IMG/VR virus record: IMGVR_UViG_3300042868_005134
Location: 62,001 to 126,000 of that record
Length of the DNA stretch: 64,000 bases
Origin: a virus
Direction: 5' to 3' (one strand)
Below, piece after piece: positions 1,180 to 53,371 of this stretch; positions within the stretch are counted from its first letter, which is position 1, and every line of letters begins with the position of its first letter. Made by a program: the position numbers and the translations under genes. The notes beneath the pieces are model-generated. The model did not search any database. It was not told the origin of the DNA and saw only the letters and a list, made by a program, of their open reading frames with translations.

Positions 1180-1197
1180 TTTCGCTCCTGGCCGTTC

Positions 1198-9461: not shown

Positions 9462-10281
9462 AGCTTTCAAGATCAAGCCATTCATATACATTTAGCCAAG
9501 GCCGTTTACCAATAGTTTCTTTTAGATGCTTGAGATCCGCACAGGTTTTGCTACGAAAACGTTGTAGTTCTTGTTGCGGAACTGCTTCATATTCGAGCTC
9601 CACACCTTCCTGTTCTGCGATGTATTCAGCAATGTCTAGAAACGAGTGCGGGAGTCCGCTACCCACATTCCAGATGCCACTACCATTAACAGTGGTCATA
9701 AAGTCCGTGTGTAGTCTACAAACATCGCCCACCCATGTCCAATCTCTGTACACATGTTCAGCATTTTCCCACACAGTGATCTTGCCTTCTTTGCGGGCTT
9801 GCTGGCGCCACTTGTAGATAGCATTGGCACGACGGCCACGCAGGTGCATCCACTTGCCGTACACATTGAAGTAACGAAACCCTTGTACCATGATAGTAGG
9901 CTCTTGTTGGAATACCCAGCGGTCAAACAAGTACTTGCTCCAAGCATATGGAGTCTGTGGATGACAGGGAGCGAACTCACTGAAGTCTTTGGTTTGTCCG
10001 TACACTGTGCTACTGCTGGCATACTGTAAGTTTACACCGTTGTACTGGCAAGCAGTGAATATCTCTTGACTGAATTCGAAGTTTTGTTTCAGTACAAGAT
10101 CAACATCTGTATTGGAAACGTCTGCTAGTGCTCCAAGATGAATAACCCAGTCGTAGGGTTTTACATCAGGAAAGTCATCATGTATCCATTCCCACCCGTC
10201 AGCATCGTGTCCTTGCTGATGTAACCAACTCATTATATTTCTGCCAATGAATCCTTCATGGCCTGTTACTAGGATTTTCAT
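9460..10281 (-). CDS. NAD-dependent sugar epimerase (RfaD/GalE-like)
   Basis: 273 aa short-chain dehydrogenase of extended type. The nucleotide site is VTGHEGFIGRN (GxxGxxG), followed by HLGALADVS, the Ser of YASSSTVYG, and the YxxxK catalytic pair in YAWSKYLFDR. GFRYFNVYGKWMHLRGRRAN resembles ADP-heptose 6-epimerase. Probably modifies an LPS or virion sugar precursor. Overlaps the methylase gene by 4 bp. Confidence 0.85.
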   Translation of the reverse strand: MKILVTGHEGFIGRNIMSWLHQQGHDADGWEWIHDDFPDVKPYDWVIHLGALADVSNTDVDLVLKQNFEFSQEIFTACQYNGVNLQYASSSTVYGQTKDFSEFAPCHPQTPYAWSKYLFDRWVFQQEPTIMVQGFRYFNVYGKWMHLRGRRANAIYKWRQQARKEGKITVWENAEHVYRDWTWVGDVCRLHTDFMTTVNGSGIWNVGSGLPHSFLDIAEYIAEQEGVELEYEAVPQQELQRFRSKTCADLKHLKETIGKRPWLNVYEWLDLES

Positions 10282-25635: not shown

Positions 25636-25669
25636 TAAGGCTACAGTAAACAACTAAGGAGCGAAACTT

Positions 25670-25879
25670 ATGCGTGAAATGACTAGCAAACTGATTGCAA
25701 TGATGGACGAAGGCCTCATCAGTGCAGAAGCTGTGGCAGAGATGGCCCTGGCTTACATGAGCGAAGATGACGTGGCAGAGATGATGCGAGCTAACGACAT
25801 CCTCCTGGACGAAGAAGACGAGGATGACGGACAGCCCGACGAAGCCCAGGAGTGGGAATCTTTTGACGCAGACTGCTAA
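25670..25879 (+). CDS. Acidic early protein, 69 aa
   Basis: MREMTSKLIAMMDEGLISAE with repeated EDDVAEMM segments and an Asp/Glu tail (LLDEEDEDDG). Ribosome site GGAGCGAA at 25658-25665. No function recognised; strong acidity suggests DNA mimicry or protein binding (speculative). Confidence 0.75.
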   Translation: MREMTSKLIAMMDEGLISAEAVAEMALAYMSEDDVAEMMRANDILLDEEDEDDGQPDEAQEWESFDADC

Positions 25880-27336: not shown

Positions 27337-27365
27337 AAGTTTTTAACAAGCACTAGGAGCGAACT

Positions 27366-27767
27366 ATGCAAATCTTTACTACACTACACACCGACGGCAT
27401 GGGCTATTGGAGTCGCACTGCTACAGCAGTAGACATTACCAAATTGGACTTGCAGTACATTAACAACGAGAGAGACTTCGGCGAGCTGTGTGTATACTTT
27501 ACAACAGACGAGCTGGGATGCAATTGCTGGGAAACTGAAGTTGACGGTCTCATTTACACAGACAAACTGTTTATGACTGAGCTACGTGCTTATTTGCAAA
27601 CAATTGGTTTCTCTGAAGCAGAAGCCGACGACGTTAGCTACAGCGAGCAGGGCATGCAGGGAGACGAGTACGTTAGCTGTGACGTGGGAGCTGTGTTTAT
27701 AGCGGGCTTGGAGCGTTTGGACCCTGCGCATGTTGCAGCAGTATACAAGGAGTGCGAGGATGTTTAA
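27366..27767 (+). CDS. Hypothetical early protein, 133 aa
   Basis: MQIFTTLHTDGMGYWSRTAT starts a beta-rich protein with a Cys-containing region (TTDELGCNCWETEVDG). GGAGCGAA leader at 27356-27363. No function recognised. Confidence 0.74.
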   Translation: MQIFTTLHTDGMGYWSRTATAVDITKLDLQYINNERDFGELCVYFTTDELGCNCWETEVDGLIYTDKLFMTELRAYLQTIGFSEAEADDVSYSEQGMQGDEYVSCDVGAVFIAGLERLDPAHVAAVYKECEDV

Positions 27768-28395: not shown

Positions 28396-28421
28396 TAAGA
28401 CTTATTAACAAGGAGCGAACC

Positions 28422-28688
28422 ATGTTAGACATTAGTAAAATTGCCAAAGTGTACAGCGGCAAGCTGGGCACCTGTATGTGCGGATGCGCCGGCAAGTACA
28501 GCTACACGGCAGAAGGTGCTGTGTCAGACAACCCGGGCTATGACGTAAGCGACAGCGTGAACGAGCGCAGTGTACGCATTATCGCTGGCAAGGTCATTGG
28601 CAATGCCAATGCAGTCAACGACGGCAACTTTGTTTATGTAGAGGATGGCAATCGCATCCGTGTTGTTTATTTTAAGGAGCAAGCATGA
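28422..28688 (+). CDS. Cys-rich early protein, 88 aa
   Basis: GKLGTCMCGCAGKYSYTAEG contains three closely spaced Cys (CxCxC) that may bind metal. The rest is beta-rich with VRIIAGKVIGNANAVND. GGAGCGAA leader at 28412-28419. The motif recurs in small phage proteins but no function is known. Confidence 0.74.
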   Translation: MLDISKIAKVYSGKLGTCMCGCAGKYSYTAEGAVSDNPGYDVSDSVNERSVRIIAGKVIGNANAVNDGNFVYVEDGNRIRVVYFKEQA

Positions 28689-29470: not shown

Positions 29471-29501
29471 ACATACATCAACAACGCAATAGGAGCGAAC
29501 T

Positions 29502-29711
29502 ATGTCAGCATTGGTAGAAGGCAAAGTGGTTAATGTTGGAGACTACGTGGGCTTTAAATCAGACATCGAGCAGTACGGCAAAATTGTAGAGATCAAACAG
29601 AGCTACATGGGTGCCAGCCTAGTACTAGAGAACGCAAGTGGCTTCTCTGGGGGCTACATAGGCGGGCAAACAATAACCACAGAGCTAGCCAGGGATTGTT
29701 GGATTGATTGA
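29502..29711 (+). CDS. Small KOW/SH3-like early protein, 69 aa
   Basis: GDYVGFKSDIEQYGKIVEIK is a KOW/SH3-like strand-turn pattern. GGAGCGAA leader at 29492-29499. The stop TGA is within the next -35 TTGACA. Function unknown. Confidence 0.7.
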   Translation: MSALVEGKVVNVGDYVGFKSDIEQYGKIVEIKQSYMGASLVLENASGFSGGYIGGQTITTELARDCWID

Positions 29712-33712: not shown

Positions 33713-33797
33713 GCGACTGTGGTGAAATAGGTAGACACAAGAGACTTAAAATCTCTCGCCGAAGGGTGTACCGGTTCGATTCCGGTCAGTCGCACCA
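33713..33797 (+). tRNA. tRNA-Leu (UAA)
   Basis: 85 nt with a long variable arm. Acceptor GCGACTG/CAGTCGC, discriminator A, encoded CCA (33795-33797). Anticodon loop CTTAAAA gives UAA. T arm GGTTCGATTCC. Confidence 0.95.
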
Positions 33798-33801
33798 TTT
33801 A

Positions 33802-33879
33802 GGGCCGTTAGCTCATGTTGGTTAGAGCAGTGGACTCATAATCCATTGGTGCTGTGTTCGACTCACAGACGGCCCACCA
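33802..33879 (+). tRNA. tRNA with CAU anticodon (Met or Ile2)
   Basis: Acceptor GGGCCGT/ACGGCCC, discriminator A, encoded CCA. Anticodon loop CTCATAA gives CAU. Features fit elongator Met; a lysidine-modified Ile2 identity cannot be excluded by sequence alone. Confidence 0.92.
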
Positions 33880-33882
33880 TAT

Positions 33883-33959
<77 letters not shown>

Positions 33960-34267: not shown

Positions 34268-34299
34268 AAACACATACACAGCAACAAGGAGCGAACCAA

Positions 34300-34617
34300 A
34301 TGGCTAAACTATTAATCACTACACAGGTTTACGAGAACTACGGTGCCCATGACTGGGACGGAGAGGGCGAGTGCCCACAGTACTGGAAAGCCAAAGGCGG
34401 CAATGACTATGTGGTCAAGAAGTTCAAAGGCAGCTCTGCTGATGCTACCTTGGCAGTCATGTGCCTGCGAGCACAGATTGAAAGCGACAACGACCACTTC
34501 CGCGAAACGGTAATCGACTTCCGCATTGTCAAGGACGACTACCTTACAGAGTTCGAGCAAAGCCAGATGGACTACGAAGGCTCCATTCGCTACCCAGCCA
34601 AGGAGCTGGCATGGTAA
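34300..34617 (+). CDS. Conserved early phage protein, 105 aa
   Basis: LLITTQVYENYGAHDWDGEG then QYWKAKGGNDYVVKKFKGSS is a block shared by many large phages. GGAGCGAA leader at 34288-34295. Function unknown. Confidence 0.78.
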   Translation: MAKLLITTQVYENYGAHDWDGEGECPQYWKAKGGNDYVVKKFKGSSADATLAVMCLRAQIESDNDHFRETVIDFRIVKDDYLTEFEQSQMDYEGSIRYPAKELAW

Positions 34618-34885: not shown

Positions 34886-34910
34886 CACATAAACAAACAA
34901 GGAGCGAACG

Positions 34911-35150
34911 ATGTTTGATAAAGTAACATTTTATACCGTACACGGCAAAAGCTATGCGCAGAAGCATGGCAACCCATTTGACCGTGGCAGTGCCGACAGC
35001 TACTACGGTCGCCCACGTCAGCCACATCAGGGCGGTGTTGGTGGCGGCAGTGGCCCTCGCGTCACAGAGCTCACAGTGGATGAGCAGGAAGCATACCATG
35101 CGGGCTACGACTACAATGAAGCCACTGGCGACAAGAAGAATTGGTATTAA
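34911..35150 (+). CDS. Gly-rich early protein, 79 aa
   Basis: MFDKVTFYTVHGKSYAQKHG, a Gly/Pro-rich middle (PHQGGVGGGSGP) and a C-terminal EQEAYHAGYDYNEATGDKKN. GGAGCGAA leader at 34901-34908. No assignment. Confidence 0.7.
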   Translation: MFDKVTFYTVHGKSYAQKHGNPFDRGSADSYYGRPRQPHQGGVGGGSGPRVTELTVDEQEAYHAGYDYNEATGDKKNWY

Positions 35151-35335: not shown

Positions 35336-35366
35336 TAACACTTACACACACTAGGGAGCGACCCAA

Positions 35367-35750
35367 ATGACTAAAGTAAATTATGACAGTTTTGCCTCGT
35401 TTGACATTAACGAGTGCTGTGACCACTTTGACAGTGAGAAGCAGAGCAACTGGAAGAAGATAAACAAGTTCATCGTGGCAGATGGACAAGAGTACGCCCA
35501 CATTATGGAGTCAGAGTTTGACTTTGAAGACACAGGTGATGGCGAGTACGAGGCCTTCCAAGCAGGCGTCAAGTATGCGCTTACCAAGATGAACATTGCC
35601 TTTGAAGCGGCCGCCATAGACCTCCAGGTATGCGAGGTGGACTTGGTAGAGAGCATGGGCTTTGTGCTGGTACGTGCTGACGACGAGCCTGAGGACTTTG
35701 TCAAACGAGTGCTCAAAAAGCCCGTCATGATGGTTGACAGCTGGGTCTAA
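35367..35750 (+). CDS. Hypothetical early protein, 127 aa
   Basis: MTKVNYDSFASFDINECCDH, acidic middle, then FEAAAIDLQVCEVDLVESMG. Helical. GGGAGCGACCC ribosome site. No assignment. Confidence 0.7.
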   Translation: MTKVNYDSFASFDINECCDHFDSEKQSNWKKINKFIVADGQEYAHIMESEFDFEDTGDGEYEAFQAGVKYALTKMNIAFEAAAIDLQVCEVDLVESMGFVLVRADDEPEDFVKRVLKKPVMMVDSWV

Positions 35751-35762: not shown

Positions 35763-35792
35763 AAACACTTAAACAACACACAGGAGCGACCT

Positions 35793-36086
35793 ATGCGTAC
35801 TATACAAGAGATTAACACAGCTATCATCCAAGGTGGTCTTACCAATGATGAGCTGGTCAGCGTGATTGATGCTGTTAAGTTTGCCCGTAGCCGACTGACA
35901 CAGCTGGCCAAGTACACCTTGCGGGTTGGTGACAGCGTCAAGTTTACCAGCTCAAAGACTGGCATGACCCTACAGGGCCGTGTGGAGAAGATTGCCATTA
36001 AATATGTAACTGTGCGTACAGCACAGGGCGCATGGAGAGTGCCCGCCAACATGTTGTCCAAAATGGATGACTTAGTAGCGGCTTGA
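35793..36086 (+). CDS. KOW-like conserved early protein, 97 aa
   Basis: An N-terminal helical hairpin (IQEINTAIIQGGLTNDELVS) and a C-terminal SH3/KOW-like barrel (LRVGDSVKFTSSKTGMTLQG followed by VEKIAIKYVTVRT). The barrel type often contacts nucleic acid or ribosomes. Function unknown. Confidence 0.74.
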   Translation: MRTIQEINTAIIQGGLTNDELVSVIDAVKFARSRLTQLAKYTLRVGDSVKFTSSKTGMTLQGRVEKIAIKYVTVRTAQGAWRVPANMLSKMDDLVAA

Positions 36087-36095
36087 TAGTATAAT
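36067..36095 (+). promoter_or_regulatory. Weaker sigma70 promoter
   Basis: ATGACT, 17 bp, TATAAT (36090-36095). The poorest -35 of the array, within the 3' end of the KOW-like gene. Confidence 0.55.
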
Positions 36096-36124
36096 TACTG
36101 TTTTAAACACGATTGGAGCGAACA

Positions 36125-37024
36125 ATGACAGGTAAAGCATATAAAGTTTTGAATCTAGAAACCATGAAGACCACACGTAAAGCCGCCACTGCCACAGTGA
36201 GCACACTGGAAATGGATAAAATCAACAAGGACCTCAGCAACGTCACCGACGAAGACATCATGGGCCGACTACGCGAACGGTTCAGCATCTTGGATGACAT
36301 GACCCGTGCTGTGAAAAAGGGTGATGTACGTGCCATGATTGTAACAGGCCCTCCGGGTGTGGGCAAGAGCTTTGGCGTGGAGAAAGTACTAGCCAAACAC
36401 GATGTGTTCGCCACAGTGGCACAGAACGAGAAGCTGAAGAAGTATGAAGTGGTCAAGGGCGCAATGAGTGCCATTGGCTTGTACAAGAAGCTCTACGAGT
36501 TTAGCGATAAGAAGTGTATCCTTGTATTCGATGACTGTGACAGCGTATTGTTAGACGACTTGAGTCTCAACATTCTCAAGGCCGCATTGGATTCAAGCAA
36601 GAAGCGTATGATCCATTGGAACACTGACAGTCGTTTGTTGCGTAGTGAAGGTGTGCCCAATCAGTTTGAGTTCAAGGGTGGTGCTATCTTTATTACCAAC
36701 ATCAAGTTTGAGCACGTTCGTAGCAAGAAGCTACAGGATCACTTGGCAGCACTAGAGAGCCGTTGCCATTACTTGGACCTTACCATTGATACGGATCGTG
36801 AGAAGCTGTTGCGTATCCGGCAGGTAGTCAGCGAGTGCGGCATGCTGGACGACTATGAGTTTAGCGACTTAGAGAAGGAAGTGCTCATTGACTTCATTGA
36901 TGAGAAGCAGGGCCGCTTGCGTGAGCTCAGCTTGCGCATGGTACTCAAGCTGGCAGACTTGAAGAAGAGTATGCCCGGCAACTGGCGTAGTGTAGCGGAT
37001 GTAACATGTATGCGTAGGGTCTAA
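36125..37024 (+). CDS. AAA+ ATPase (MoxR/CbbQ-like)
   Basis: 299 aa from ATG 36125 behind GGAGCGAA (36115-36122). Walker A GPPGVGKSFG, Walker B ILVFDDCDSVLLDD, sensor-type segment GGAIFITNIKF. The N-terminal region is phage-specific. AAA proteins of this size are common in T4-like and jumbo phages; substrate unknown. Largest early gene and last before the anti-SD RNA. Confidence 0.82.
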   Translation: MTGKAYKVLNLETMKTTRKAATATVSTLEMDKINKDLSNVTDEDIMGRLRERFSILDDMTRAVKKGDVRAMIVTGPPGVGKSFGVEKVLAKHDVFATVAQNEKLKKYEVVKGAMSAIGLYKKLYEFSDKKCILVFDDCDSVLLDDLSLNILKAALDSSKKRMIHWNTDSRLLRSEGVPNQFEFKGGAIFITNIKFEHVRSKKLQDHLAALESRCHYLDLTIDTDREKLLRIRQVVSECGMLDDYEFSDLEKEVLIDFIDEKQGRLRELSLRMVLKLADLKKSMPGNWRSVADVTCMRRV

Positions 37025-37190
37025 CCCTACATGTACAGTACAGCTAGCAGCCACTAAGAGCTGTATGCTGTACACTAACTGGCCAACGATTCGCTCCCGG
37101 TAACCAGTTCCTGGCCAGTGAGGCGCACTGGCAGACTAGTCCTGACATCATAATTCCGATTCGCTCCCGGTTGTGTCAGGACTTTTTTTT
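37025..37190 (+). ncRNA. Three-hairpin RNA with two anti-Shine-Dalgarno loops
   Basis: Hairpin 1: TGTACAG (37032-37038)/CTGTACA (37068-37074) plus ACAGCT/AGCTGT. Hairpin 2: ACTGGCCA (37078-37085)/TGGCCAGT (37112-37119). Hairpin 3: AGTCCTGACA (37138-37147)/TGTCAGGACT (37174-37183) with eight T, a terminator. Loops 2 and 3 carry the identical 14-mer CGATTCGCTCCCGG (37087-37100; 37157-37170). TTCGCTCC is the exact complement of GGAGCGAA found in at least eight gene leaders. Probably 3'-UTR derived, as no promoter is seen. Confidence 0.7.
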
Positions 37191-52301: not shown

Positions 52302-53371
52302 TATTCGGTCTCCTGATCTCCGTCACTAGTAGTTATCTCGGAAGGAATAATTTCACCGTGATTAGTAACATCTTTCATGATGACATCTAATCCAGATTTT
52401 TCATTTCGCTCCCATGGCTTACGGAATTGTTTGATAATTTCACCATCTTTGGTAATATAAACAAGACTATTACCTTCTTTCTTTAACATGGTCTTGCCTT
52501 CAAACAAATCAACTAATCCGCTATAAGGACTCATGCCAGTAGTGTATGGAATTTCTACTTGTACAGTTTCAAACGGCTTTGAATACCGTGTTTTCATAAT
52601 TTTACATGCGGCGCGAATACCATTAACTGATGTAGTCTTATTGCCATCAGCATCAGTCTTCAATTTTAATTTACGCATGGCAACAACAATAGAGCTGGCA
52701 TAGATAAAGCCCTGGCCGCCGCTAATCTTGTCATCTGGATCGAACATATCCTGACTTGCGTATGTGTGATTGGTACAAACTAATCCAACATTGTATTGAC
52801 CAATCATATTCACTGTATTACGTACAAGACTGGTAAGTGCTTTAGGTTTACGGCCCATGTCACCTTTCATATCACCTGCTTCGAACTGATTAACATCTGT
52901 AGGAGTCAACAACATGCCCAACGAATCAATAACAAACAGGACCTTAGGTCGGTCTTCCATAGCCTTATACTCTTTCATAAATTCACTAATAGTTTTAGCT
53001 ACGTCGTCAATCATGGCCATGTTAAGTTTCAACAATTTTTTATCGCTAGTATCAACACCTAATGCGTGTAACCACGATTCGTCCAATGCGTTTTCACTGT
53101 CAACTAGAATGACATAGATACCCTGTTCTTGTGCGTTCCTGATAATGTTACCGGAACAAATATAACTTTTGCCGGCACCACTTTCACCGGCAAACACCGT
53201 AACCTTACCCAAAGGAATACCCTTGTTAAAATCACCACTAATTAGATAGTTAAGGGCAAAGTTGCCAGTGCTAATCCAATCTGTTGGGTCGTTAAATCCC
53301 ACGCCCAATCCTTCAATACTCTTTGTTAGAGTTTTTCTAAATTTACTTAAATCAAATGCTTTTGTAGCCAT
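52301..53371 (-). CDS. uvsX: Recombinase UvsX (RecA-like)
   Basis: 356 aa from ATG 53371 with AAAGGAAG upstream. Walker A FAGESGAGKSYICSGN, Walker B PKVLFVIDSLGMLL, and the L2-region LVCTNHTYASQD. Catalyses strand exchange in phage recombination-dependent replication. Confidence 0.94.
   Translation of the reverse strand: MATKAFDLSKFRKTLTKSIEGLGVGFNDPTDWISTGNFALNYLISGDFNKGIPLGKVTVFAGESGAGKSYICSGNIIRNAQEQGIYVILVDSENALDESWLHALGVDTSDKKLLKLNMAMIDDVAKTISEFMKEYKAMEDRPKVLFVIDSLGMLLTPTDVNQFEAGDMKGDMGRKPKALTSLVRNTVNMIGQYNVGLVCTNHTYASQDMFDPDDKISGGQGFIYASSIVVAMRKLKLKTDADGNKTTSVNGIRAACKIMKTRYSKPFETVQVEIPYTTGMSPYSGLVDLFEGKTMLKKEGNSLVYITKDGEIIKQFRKPWERNEKSGLDVIMKDVTNHGEIIPSEITTSDGDQETE

Follow-up and report, generated by a model that had tools for sequence, protein, structure and literature searches.

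A structured RNA at the end of an nrdC.10-like ATPase gene of a large phage carries two loops complementary to a set of ribosome-site leaders

The window, by which we mean the whole stretch of 64,000 nucleotides that was analysed, belongs to a virus record of 383,411 bases, from a phage known only from metagenomes. On its plus strand lies an AAA ATPase gene, the product of which is 48% identical to that of a gene of the jumbo phage PA5oct and is related to T4 nrdC.10. The gene is followed by a structured non-coding RNA that begins after the stop of the gene and reaches the last letter of a T-run. The features of this region are given below.

36067 to 36095, plus strand: promoter-like site, ATGACT-17-TATAAT, the closest start upstream of the ATPase gene and the RNA
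36115 to 36122, plus strand: GGAGCGAA, the ATPase gene's own target leader (candidate feedback site); the leaders of orthologues begin GGAGCG in most relatives
36125 to 37024, plus strand: nrdC.10-like AAA ATPase gene (phrog_1250, PHROG E 2.9e-80, T4-type nrdC.10 homologues), the RNA being most simply the 3′UTR of its mRNA
37025 to 37190, plus strand: structured non-coding RNA, from the ATPase gene stop to the end of the T-run (fold z = -4.0; 80 of 80 relatives)
37038 to 37073, plus strand: hairpin H0, with a non-conserved loop (from the fold)
37078 to 37108, plus strand: hairpin H1, anti-Shine-Dalgarno hairpin 1, with a CCAA/GYAA internal loop (from the fold and from covariation in 27 relatives)
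37089 to 37097, plus strand: loop 1, AUUCGCUCC, in which 37090 to 37097 is complementary to GGAGCGAA
37111 to 37134, plus strand: spacer hairpin Hm, variable in relatives and missing from some (from the fold)
37138 to 37183, plus strand: hairpin H2, anti-Shine-Dalgarno hairpin 2 and at the same time the stem of the intrinsic terminator (from the fold)
37159 to 37167, plus strand: loop 2, AUUCGCUCC, in which 37160 to 37167 is complementary to GGAGCGAA
37183 to 37190, plus strand: T8 tail of the intrinsic terminator (from the sequence), the first T of which pairs within the H2 stem

No promoter was found between the ATPase gene and the RNA, neither in this phage nor in its relatives; the best promoter scores before the RNA were mostly 7 to 8 of 12, the level seen inside the gene. 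The ATPase gene was preceded by a TTGACA/TATAAT promoter scoring 10 to 12 of 12 in 56 of 61 relatives. We therefore regard the RNA most simply as the 3′UTR of the nrdC.10-like ATPase mRNA. Among the features of a 3′UTR-derived sRNA, the position downstream of a coding gene, the absence of an own promoter and an end in the terminator of that gene were found here. In some relatives (L136, L150 and L189) hairpin 1 overlaps the stop codon of the ATPase gene.

Folding of the segment from 37025 to 37190 gave -62.4 kcal/mol, and none of 200 shuffled sequences was equally stable. Both H1 and H2 present AUUCGCUCC as a loop of 9 nt, and the pairs that close it are CG/CG or CCG/CGG. An earlier, sequence-only reading of this DNA had described three hairpins ending in a T8 terminator, with two loops presenting an identical 14-mer. 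The T8 terminator after H2 was retained, the hairpins were found to be four, and the 14-mer, CGATTCGCTCCCGG, does occur exactly twice in the window, at 37087-37100 and 37157-37170. The displayed loop, however, is 9 nt long, the outer letters of the 14-mer forming the closing stem, and the match to the leader covers 8 nt, with UUCGCUCC within the loop as the exact complement of GGAGCGAA. A UUCG tetraloop within the loop was considered and rejected, since it would require an A-C closing pair. The tail of at least 7 U after the terminator hairpin that marks Hfq-dependent sRNAs is present as T8 in the window, and of 65 distinct relatives 46 have T8 as well. The hairpin that precedes the two anti-Shine-Dalgarno hairpins, H0, resembles its counterpart in several relatives (CAGC...GCUG) outside the loop.

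Relatives were retrieved with the ATPase protein alone and the loop was not used for selection. All 80 of them carried the loop at most 300 bases 3′ of the ATPase gene, 75 with at least two copies. Only four 8-mers were common to all 65 distinct downstream regions, TTCGCTCC being one of them, and all four lie within GATTCGCTCCC. Of 122 loops, 118 read ATTCGCTCC and 4 read AATCGCTCC; this rare variant (L133, L140, L186, L192, L195) affects a single hairpin of the pair and leaves the second loop unchanged. The possibility that variant loops are matched by variant leaders was rejected, AATCGCTCC loops being found without accompanying GGAGCGATT leaders. Because the loop hardly varies, no compensatory change between loop and leader is visible.

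The stems behave differently from the loop. In an alignment of H1 from 27 relatives 100% of the cells were paired and double changes occurred at 6 of 6 outer pairs, with a covariation score of 0.777 compared to 0.195 after shuffling and at most 0.157 with slid partners. This alignment was selected by the CCAACG motif plus loop, and those letters are therefore invariant in it by construction. Across 114 distinct hairpins the outer stems reached 8.8 bp with the real arms and 4.7 bp with swapped arms, and the closing triplets varied (CCG/CGG, GTG/CAC, CTG/CAG, GCG/CGC and CGG/CCG). When IMG/VR was scanned with any letter allowed at the four selective bases of the loop, TTCG was found at these bases in 45 of 47 distinct matches, and the remaining 2 look like chance matches in coding sequence. 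The combination by which the sRNA class is recognized, a conserved seed on a scaffold that drifts with compensatory changes, was thus found here. The pattern is that of a putative trans-acting seed held fixed by several targets while its scaffold drifts. Among cultured phages no DNA match to the RNA region or to the hairpin of the second family described below was found.

The leaders in the window that match the loop, in addition to that of the ATPase gene, are the following.

25658 to 25665, plus strand: target leader of the gene with ATG at 25670
27356 to 27363, plus strand: target leader of the gene with ATG at 27366
28412 to 28419, plus strand: target leader of the gene with ATG at 28422
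29492 to 29499, plus strand: target leader of the gene with ATG at 29502
34288 to 34295, plus strand: target leader of the gene with ATG at 34300; GGAGCGAA is kept by 26 of 27 orthologues
34901 to 34908, plus strand: target leader of the gene with ATG at 34911
35355 to 35362, plus strand: near-target leader GGAGCGAC of the gene with ATG at 35367
35783 to 35790, plus strand: near-target leader GGAGCGAC of the gene with ATG at 35793
1181 to 1188, minus strand: target leader of the gene that starts at 1179, which is tail-fibre-like and has collagen repeats

In the window GGAGCGAA occurred 12 times, two of these being the loops, against 1.06 expected, a number reached by none of 100 shuffles. The whole 383,411-base genome contained 15 sites, the two loops and 13 others, and 11 of the 13 are ribosome-site leaders: those of seven early genes, of the collagen-like tail gene, of a holin, of a CsgF-like gene and of a small membrane-protein gene. 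The sites at 9968 (plus) and 52405-52412 (minus) are not leaders, and the reversed pattern had 0 sites in the phage's own genome. A single-stranded seed that complements the Shine-Dalgarno sites of several mRNAs, by which trans-acting anti-Shine-Dalgarno sRNAs are defined, was accordingly found with 11 leaders. The seven early leaders are concentrated in about 11 kb of the early cluster.

These results strongly support the sequence-only reading in its core, a phage RNA with two anti-Shine-Dalgarno loops directed against early leaders: covariation is seen in the stems, the loop barely changes among relatives selected by protein, and relatives have either both the loop and the leader cluster or neither. 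All eight leader positions that it listed were correct, each followed closely by the ATG of an ORF of 40 aa or more. Its proposal that the RNA shuts off the early genes globally has to be given up. Only 7 of the 21 GGAGC leaders in the early cluster are GGAGCGAA and 2 more, GGAGCGAC, are near-perfect, so that the match is selective and concerns a defined set. Selectivity is also suggested by the calculated duplex energies, about -13 kcal/mol for the loop with a GGAGCGAA leader, -8.8 kcal/mol for the loop with GGAGCACA and -5.6 to -8.5 kcal/mol for the leader with a generic 16S tail. An escape of GGAGCAC leaders from the RNA, as that reading had proposed, is plausible in terms of these energies. 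Cofolding of the full RNA with the leaders was uninformative, loop-loop pairing lying outside the model.

In the relatives of this first family GGAGCGAA was the commonest GGAG leader, with 271 of 966 cases compared to 55 for the next, GGAGCGAC. The columns beyond GGAG favour C, G, A and A, the part that pairs with the loop and not with the ribosome; the base following GGAGCGAA is mostly A or C, and the match therefore stops at 8 nt. Orthologues of the early genes that carry GGAGCGAA in the window kept it in 86 of 164 cases, whereas orthologues of other early genes had it in 58 of 306. The match between loop and leaders is confirmed as real, conserved and far beyond chance.

The same leader also precedes late genes, among them a holin. 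The holin, with three transmembrane segments (PF11351, phrog_3427; G000:C1:281116, L351), and a small membrane protein (phrog_18771; G000:C1:375979, L352) have GGAGCGAA leaders, and a CsgF-like gene (PF10614, E 7.5e-12; G000:C1:3519, L350) has the leader GGGAGCGAA behind a TTAAATA late-type promoter. A TAAATA late-promoter-like site lies upstream of both the CsgF-like and the membrane-protein genes. The holin and the small membrane protein are possible lysis-timing targets, and lysis and other late genes would probably also be masked by the RNA. Among holin relatives selected by protein, 32 of 67 had exactly GGAGCGAA; the large contigs that were tested showed no loop, which makes the evidence for the holin weaker than that for the early genes. 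A domain of CsgF, a curli secretion accessory protein, is itself an observation in a phage gene, and relatives of it were seen in several further viral contigs.

A further type of late leader was found in a pattern scan, 12 of the 19 matches of which are late genes with the leader CCG-GGAGCGAAU-CGG behind TAAATA; these genes were selected by that very sequence. The sequence is the exact mirror hairpin of the RNA loop, with the Shine-Dalgarno site in a 9-nt loop, and could possibly allow loop-loop kissing with the RNA. Mirror-hairpin late leaders were seen at L035, L038, L039, L074, L339, L341, L344, L346 and L349.

Other large phages with the phrog_1250 gene form a second family, in which two separate single-hairpin loci lie about 7 kb apart, each with its own terminator, and in which one loop sits 3′ of a different gene. 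For 42 hairpins of this family the own arms paired over 8.2 bp and exchanged arms over 6.2 bp, a smaller margin than in the first family. Here too GGAGCGAA was the commonest GGAG leader, with 165 of 630 cases, the next having 38. Searches of complete records returned two loops each in G009, G010, G011 and G013 and likewise in most first-family records. Two loops per genome were seen even where these belong to two RNAs about 7 kb apart (G001, G009, G010, G011 and G013).

The arrangement of the second family bears on a cis-acting explanation, in which the main partner of the loops is the 5′ leader of the ATPase mRNA that carries them, to give a message closed from 5′ to 3′, controlling only that gene or its decay, all other matches being secondary. 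The location of the RNA in the 3′UTR of this mRNA with no promoter of its own and the extension of hairpin 1 over the stop codon in some relatives agree with such a role, as does the leader of the ATPase gene itself, which in 80 relatives starts GGAGCG in 77, reading GGAGCGAA in 31 and GGAGCGAC in 23. Against it, this leader frequently reads GGAGCGAC or GGAGCGTA, many further early genes and a holin show an enrichment of GGAGCGAA, and in the second family one loop follows another gene at a distance of about 7 kb. We therefore consider a mainly cis-acting element unlikely.

The presence of the loop was then compared with the density of the leader. Fourteen loop-bearing records contained 1.1 to 11.9 non-loop GGAGCGAA sites per 100 kb, most of them grouped in the neighbourhood of the RNA. 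In contrast, seven records that have the ATPase gene and lack the loop (PA5oct, Acj9, G021, G027, G030, G032 and G036) contained 0 to 1.0 per 100 kb; these relatives lack the leader cluster as well. In five relatives without the loop the ATPase gene is followed by other sequence, where no anti-Shine-Dalgarno hairpin was noticed, and the cultured phages PA5oct and Acj9 share the ATPase gene and lack the loop. A rank test of the GGAGCGAA densities gave p of about 9e-6 for records that are not independent; the loop-free ones cluster in the gene tree, so that presence and absence follow phylogeny and represent fewer independent events. The check that the sequence-only reading had proposed, covariation of loops and leaders in relatives, thus came out as joint presence and absence and not as base changes, the loop being nearly invariant.

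The same comparison makes it quite improbable that the loop is a protein-binding or terminator element, acting in antitermination or RNA stability, with an incidental complementarity to the leaders. H2 is indeed the intrinsic terminator, and hairpins that bind proteins also typically show invariant loops on variable stems. An incidental match would nevertheless have to account for an invariant loop that exactly complements the commonest leader of the same genomes, for the joint absence of loop and leader, for the position of H1 and of many second-family loops outside a terminator stem and for late leaders that are exact mirror hairpins of the loop. An action chiefly on host mRNAs with GGAGCGAA leaders, with minor effects on phage genes, appears still less probable: pairing is open to any GGAGCG mRNA, but GGAGCGAA leaders gather in the early cluster of the phage (7 in about 11 kb, and 11 of the 13 non-loop sites in 383 kb being leaders) and track the presence of the RNA. 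A host-encoded origin of the RNA was rejected separately; a loop plus T7 pattern, that is, the terminator form only, was searched for in 84,980 genomes of bacteria and archaea and returned 5 matches, 0 of them with the loop hairpin.

Several bacterial sRNAs, among them S. aureus RNAIII, the alphaproteobacterial AbcR type and cyanobacterial Yfr1, use a C-rich single-stranded seed that pairs with the Shine-Dalgarno sites of several mRNAs. For RsaE, also a multi-loop sRNA of S. aureus, the UCCC motif was reported to block formation of the ribosomal complex (PMC9266662). The phage RNA resembles these in its C-rich seed. It differs in being phage-encoded, in lying in the 3′UTR of an early gene and in presenting two identical 9-nt loops, and it has no sequence or Rfam relation to them; its seed reaches 4 nt beyond GGAG and thereby selects one leader type. 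Out of 4227 Rfam models only tRNAs scored above the gathering cut-off in the window and the RNA itself was unmatched. The weak Infernal match to anti-hemB (RF02837, Burkholderia RNA 7; 19.8 bits, cut-off 49.5) does not make it a member of that family, which is similar in its C-rich start and T-tailed hairpin and different in its single C-rich loop, CCUCCCU. Regulatory RNAs encoded by phages include VpdS and PreS (lambda), trans-acting sRNAs reviewed in PMC12197685, as well as antisense OOP, aQ and c4, and VpdS of VP882 acts on phage and host mRNAs (PMC12197685). The reports on those concern single temperate phages and their near relatives, whereas the RNA described here spans a large clade of large phages and is matched to a common leader of its own genomes. 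No report of this RNA was found in the open-access literature.

Masking of a Shine-Dalgarno site normally prevents 30S binding. That pairing would protect or activate the targets, for example by shielding GGAG from a nuclease until release, with no repression, has on this ground a very slight probability, even though the evidence for pairing gives by itself no sign of regulation and T4 RegB cuts GGAG in early leaders, so that masking could protect (PMC3014915); no RegB homologue (PF10715) was matched in the records searched, in a search without positive control. In T4, RegB cuts early Shine-Dalgarno sites at GG/AG and RegA competes with ribosomes on about 30 mRNAs (PMC3014915). Control here would likewise be post-transcriptional and exerted on early genes at translation starts, the agent being an RNA. 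RegA (PF01818) gave no match in 14 of 15 records searched, including this genome, and matched in Acj9 as positive control.

We thus favour, with a probability of roughly 0.7, the interpretation that a 3′UTR-derived sRNA of the ATPase mRNA masks the Shine-Dalgarno leaders in front of a particular set of the phage's genes and so keeps ribosomes off them. The 3′UTR ends at the intrinsic terminator and would probably be released or stabilised as a small RNA, which we infer to be a separate species. In the cell each AUUCGCUCC loop would pair over 8 nt (UUCGCUCC/GGAGCGAA) with a leader and block 30S binding, from which we infer repression. Its targets would be mainly early genes with their own sigma70-type promoters and a few late genes such as the holin. 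With the ATPase gene among the targets, a negative feedback would result, and since early mRNAs including the parent mRNA are targets, accumulation of the RNA would damp the early genes. For late genes the RNA could set a threshold to be exceeded before holin is made. From its complementarity to these leaders, the RNA is probably a built-in switch of the phage that turns the matched genes down.

A wider picture is conceivable, and we put it forward tentatively as one that may well not hold in full: throughout a clade of large phages a single RNA at the tail of an early message might act as a phage-wide translational timer, in the role that RegA and RegB have in T4. It would turn down the early genes marked by GGAGCGAA, feed back on its own mRNA and set a threshold for late lysis and surface genes (the three-transmembrane holin, the CsgF-like gene), some late leaders kissing it via the mirror hairpin. 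What is known of early-gene switch-off in lytic phages is mostly protein-based, as for RegA and RegB. Masking by the ATPase 3′UTR, if true, would constitute a switch made of RNA, the code of which can be read from a fixed 8-nt leader tag and its mirror in the loop. Since this code is spread over many uncultured large phages, targets could be listed directly from sequence. A function would be given to a conserved 3′UTR in a phage group nearly devoid of experiments, with a possible RNA control of lysis timing.

Finally, the early cluster itself shows two further features. Between 25231 and 35762 on the plus strand, over about 10.5 kb, 18 perfect TTGACA/TATAAT sites precede small early genes, 17 of them with a 17-nt spacer; consensus sigma70 promoters are rarely so dense. 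At 33713-33959 on the same strand the cluster also contains three tRNA genes (Leu-taa, Met-cat and Arg-tct).
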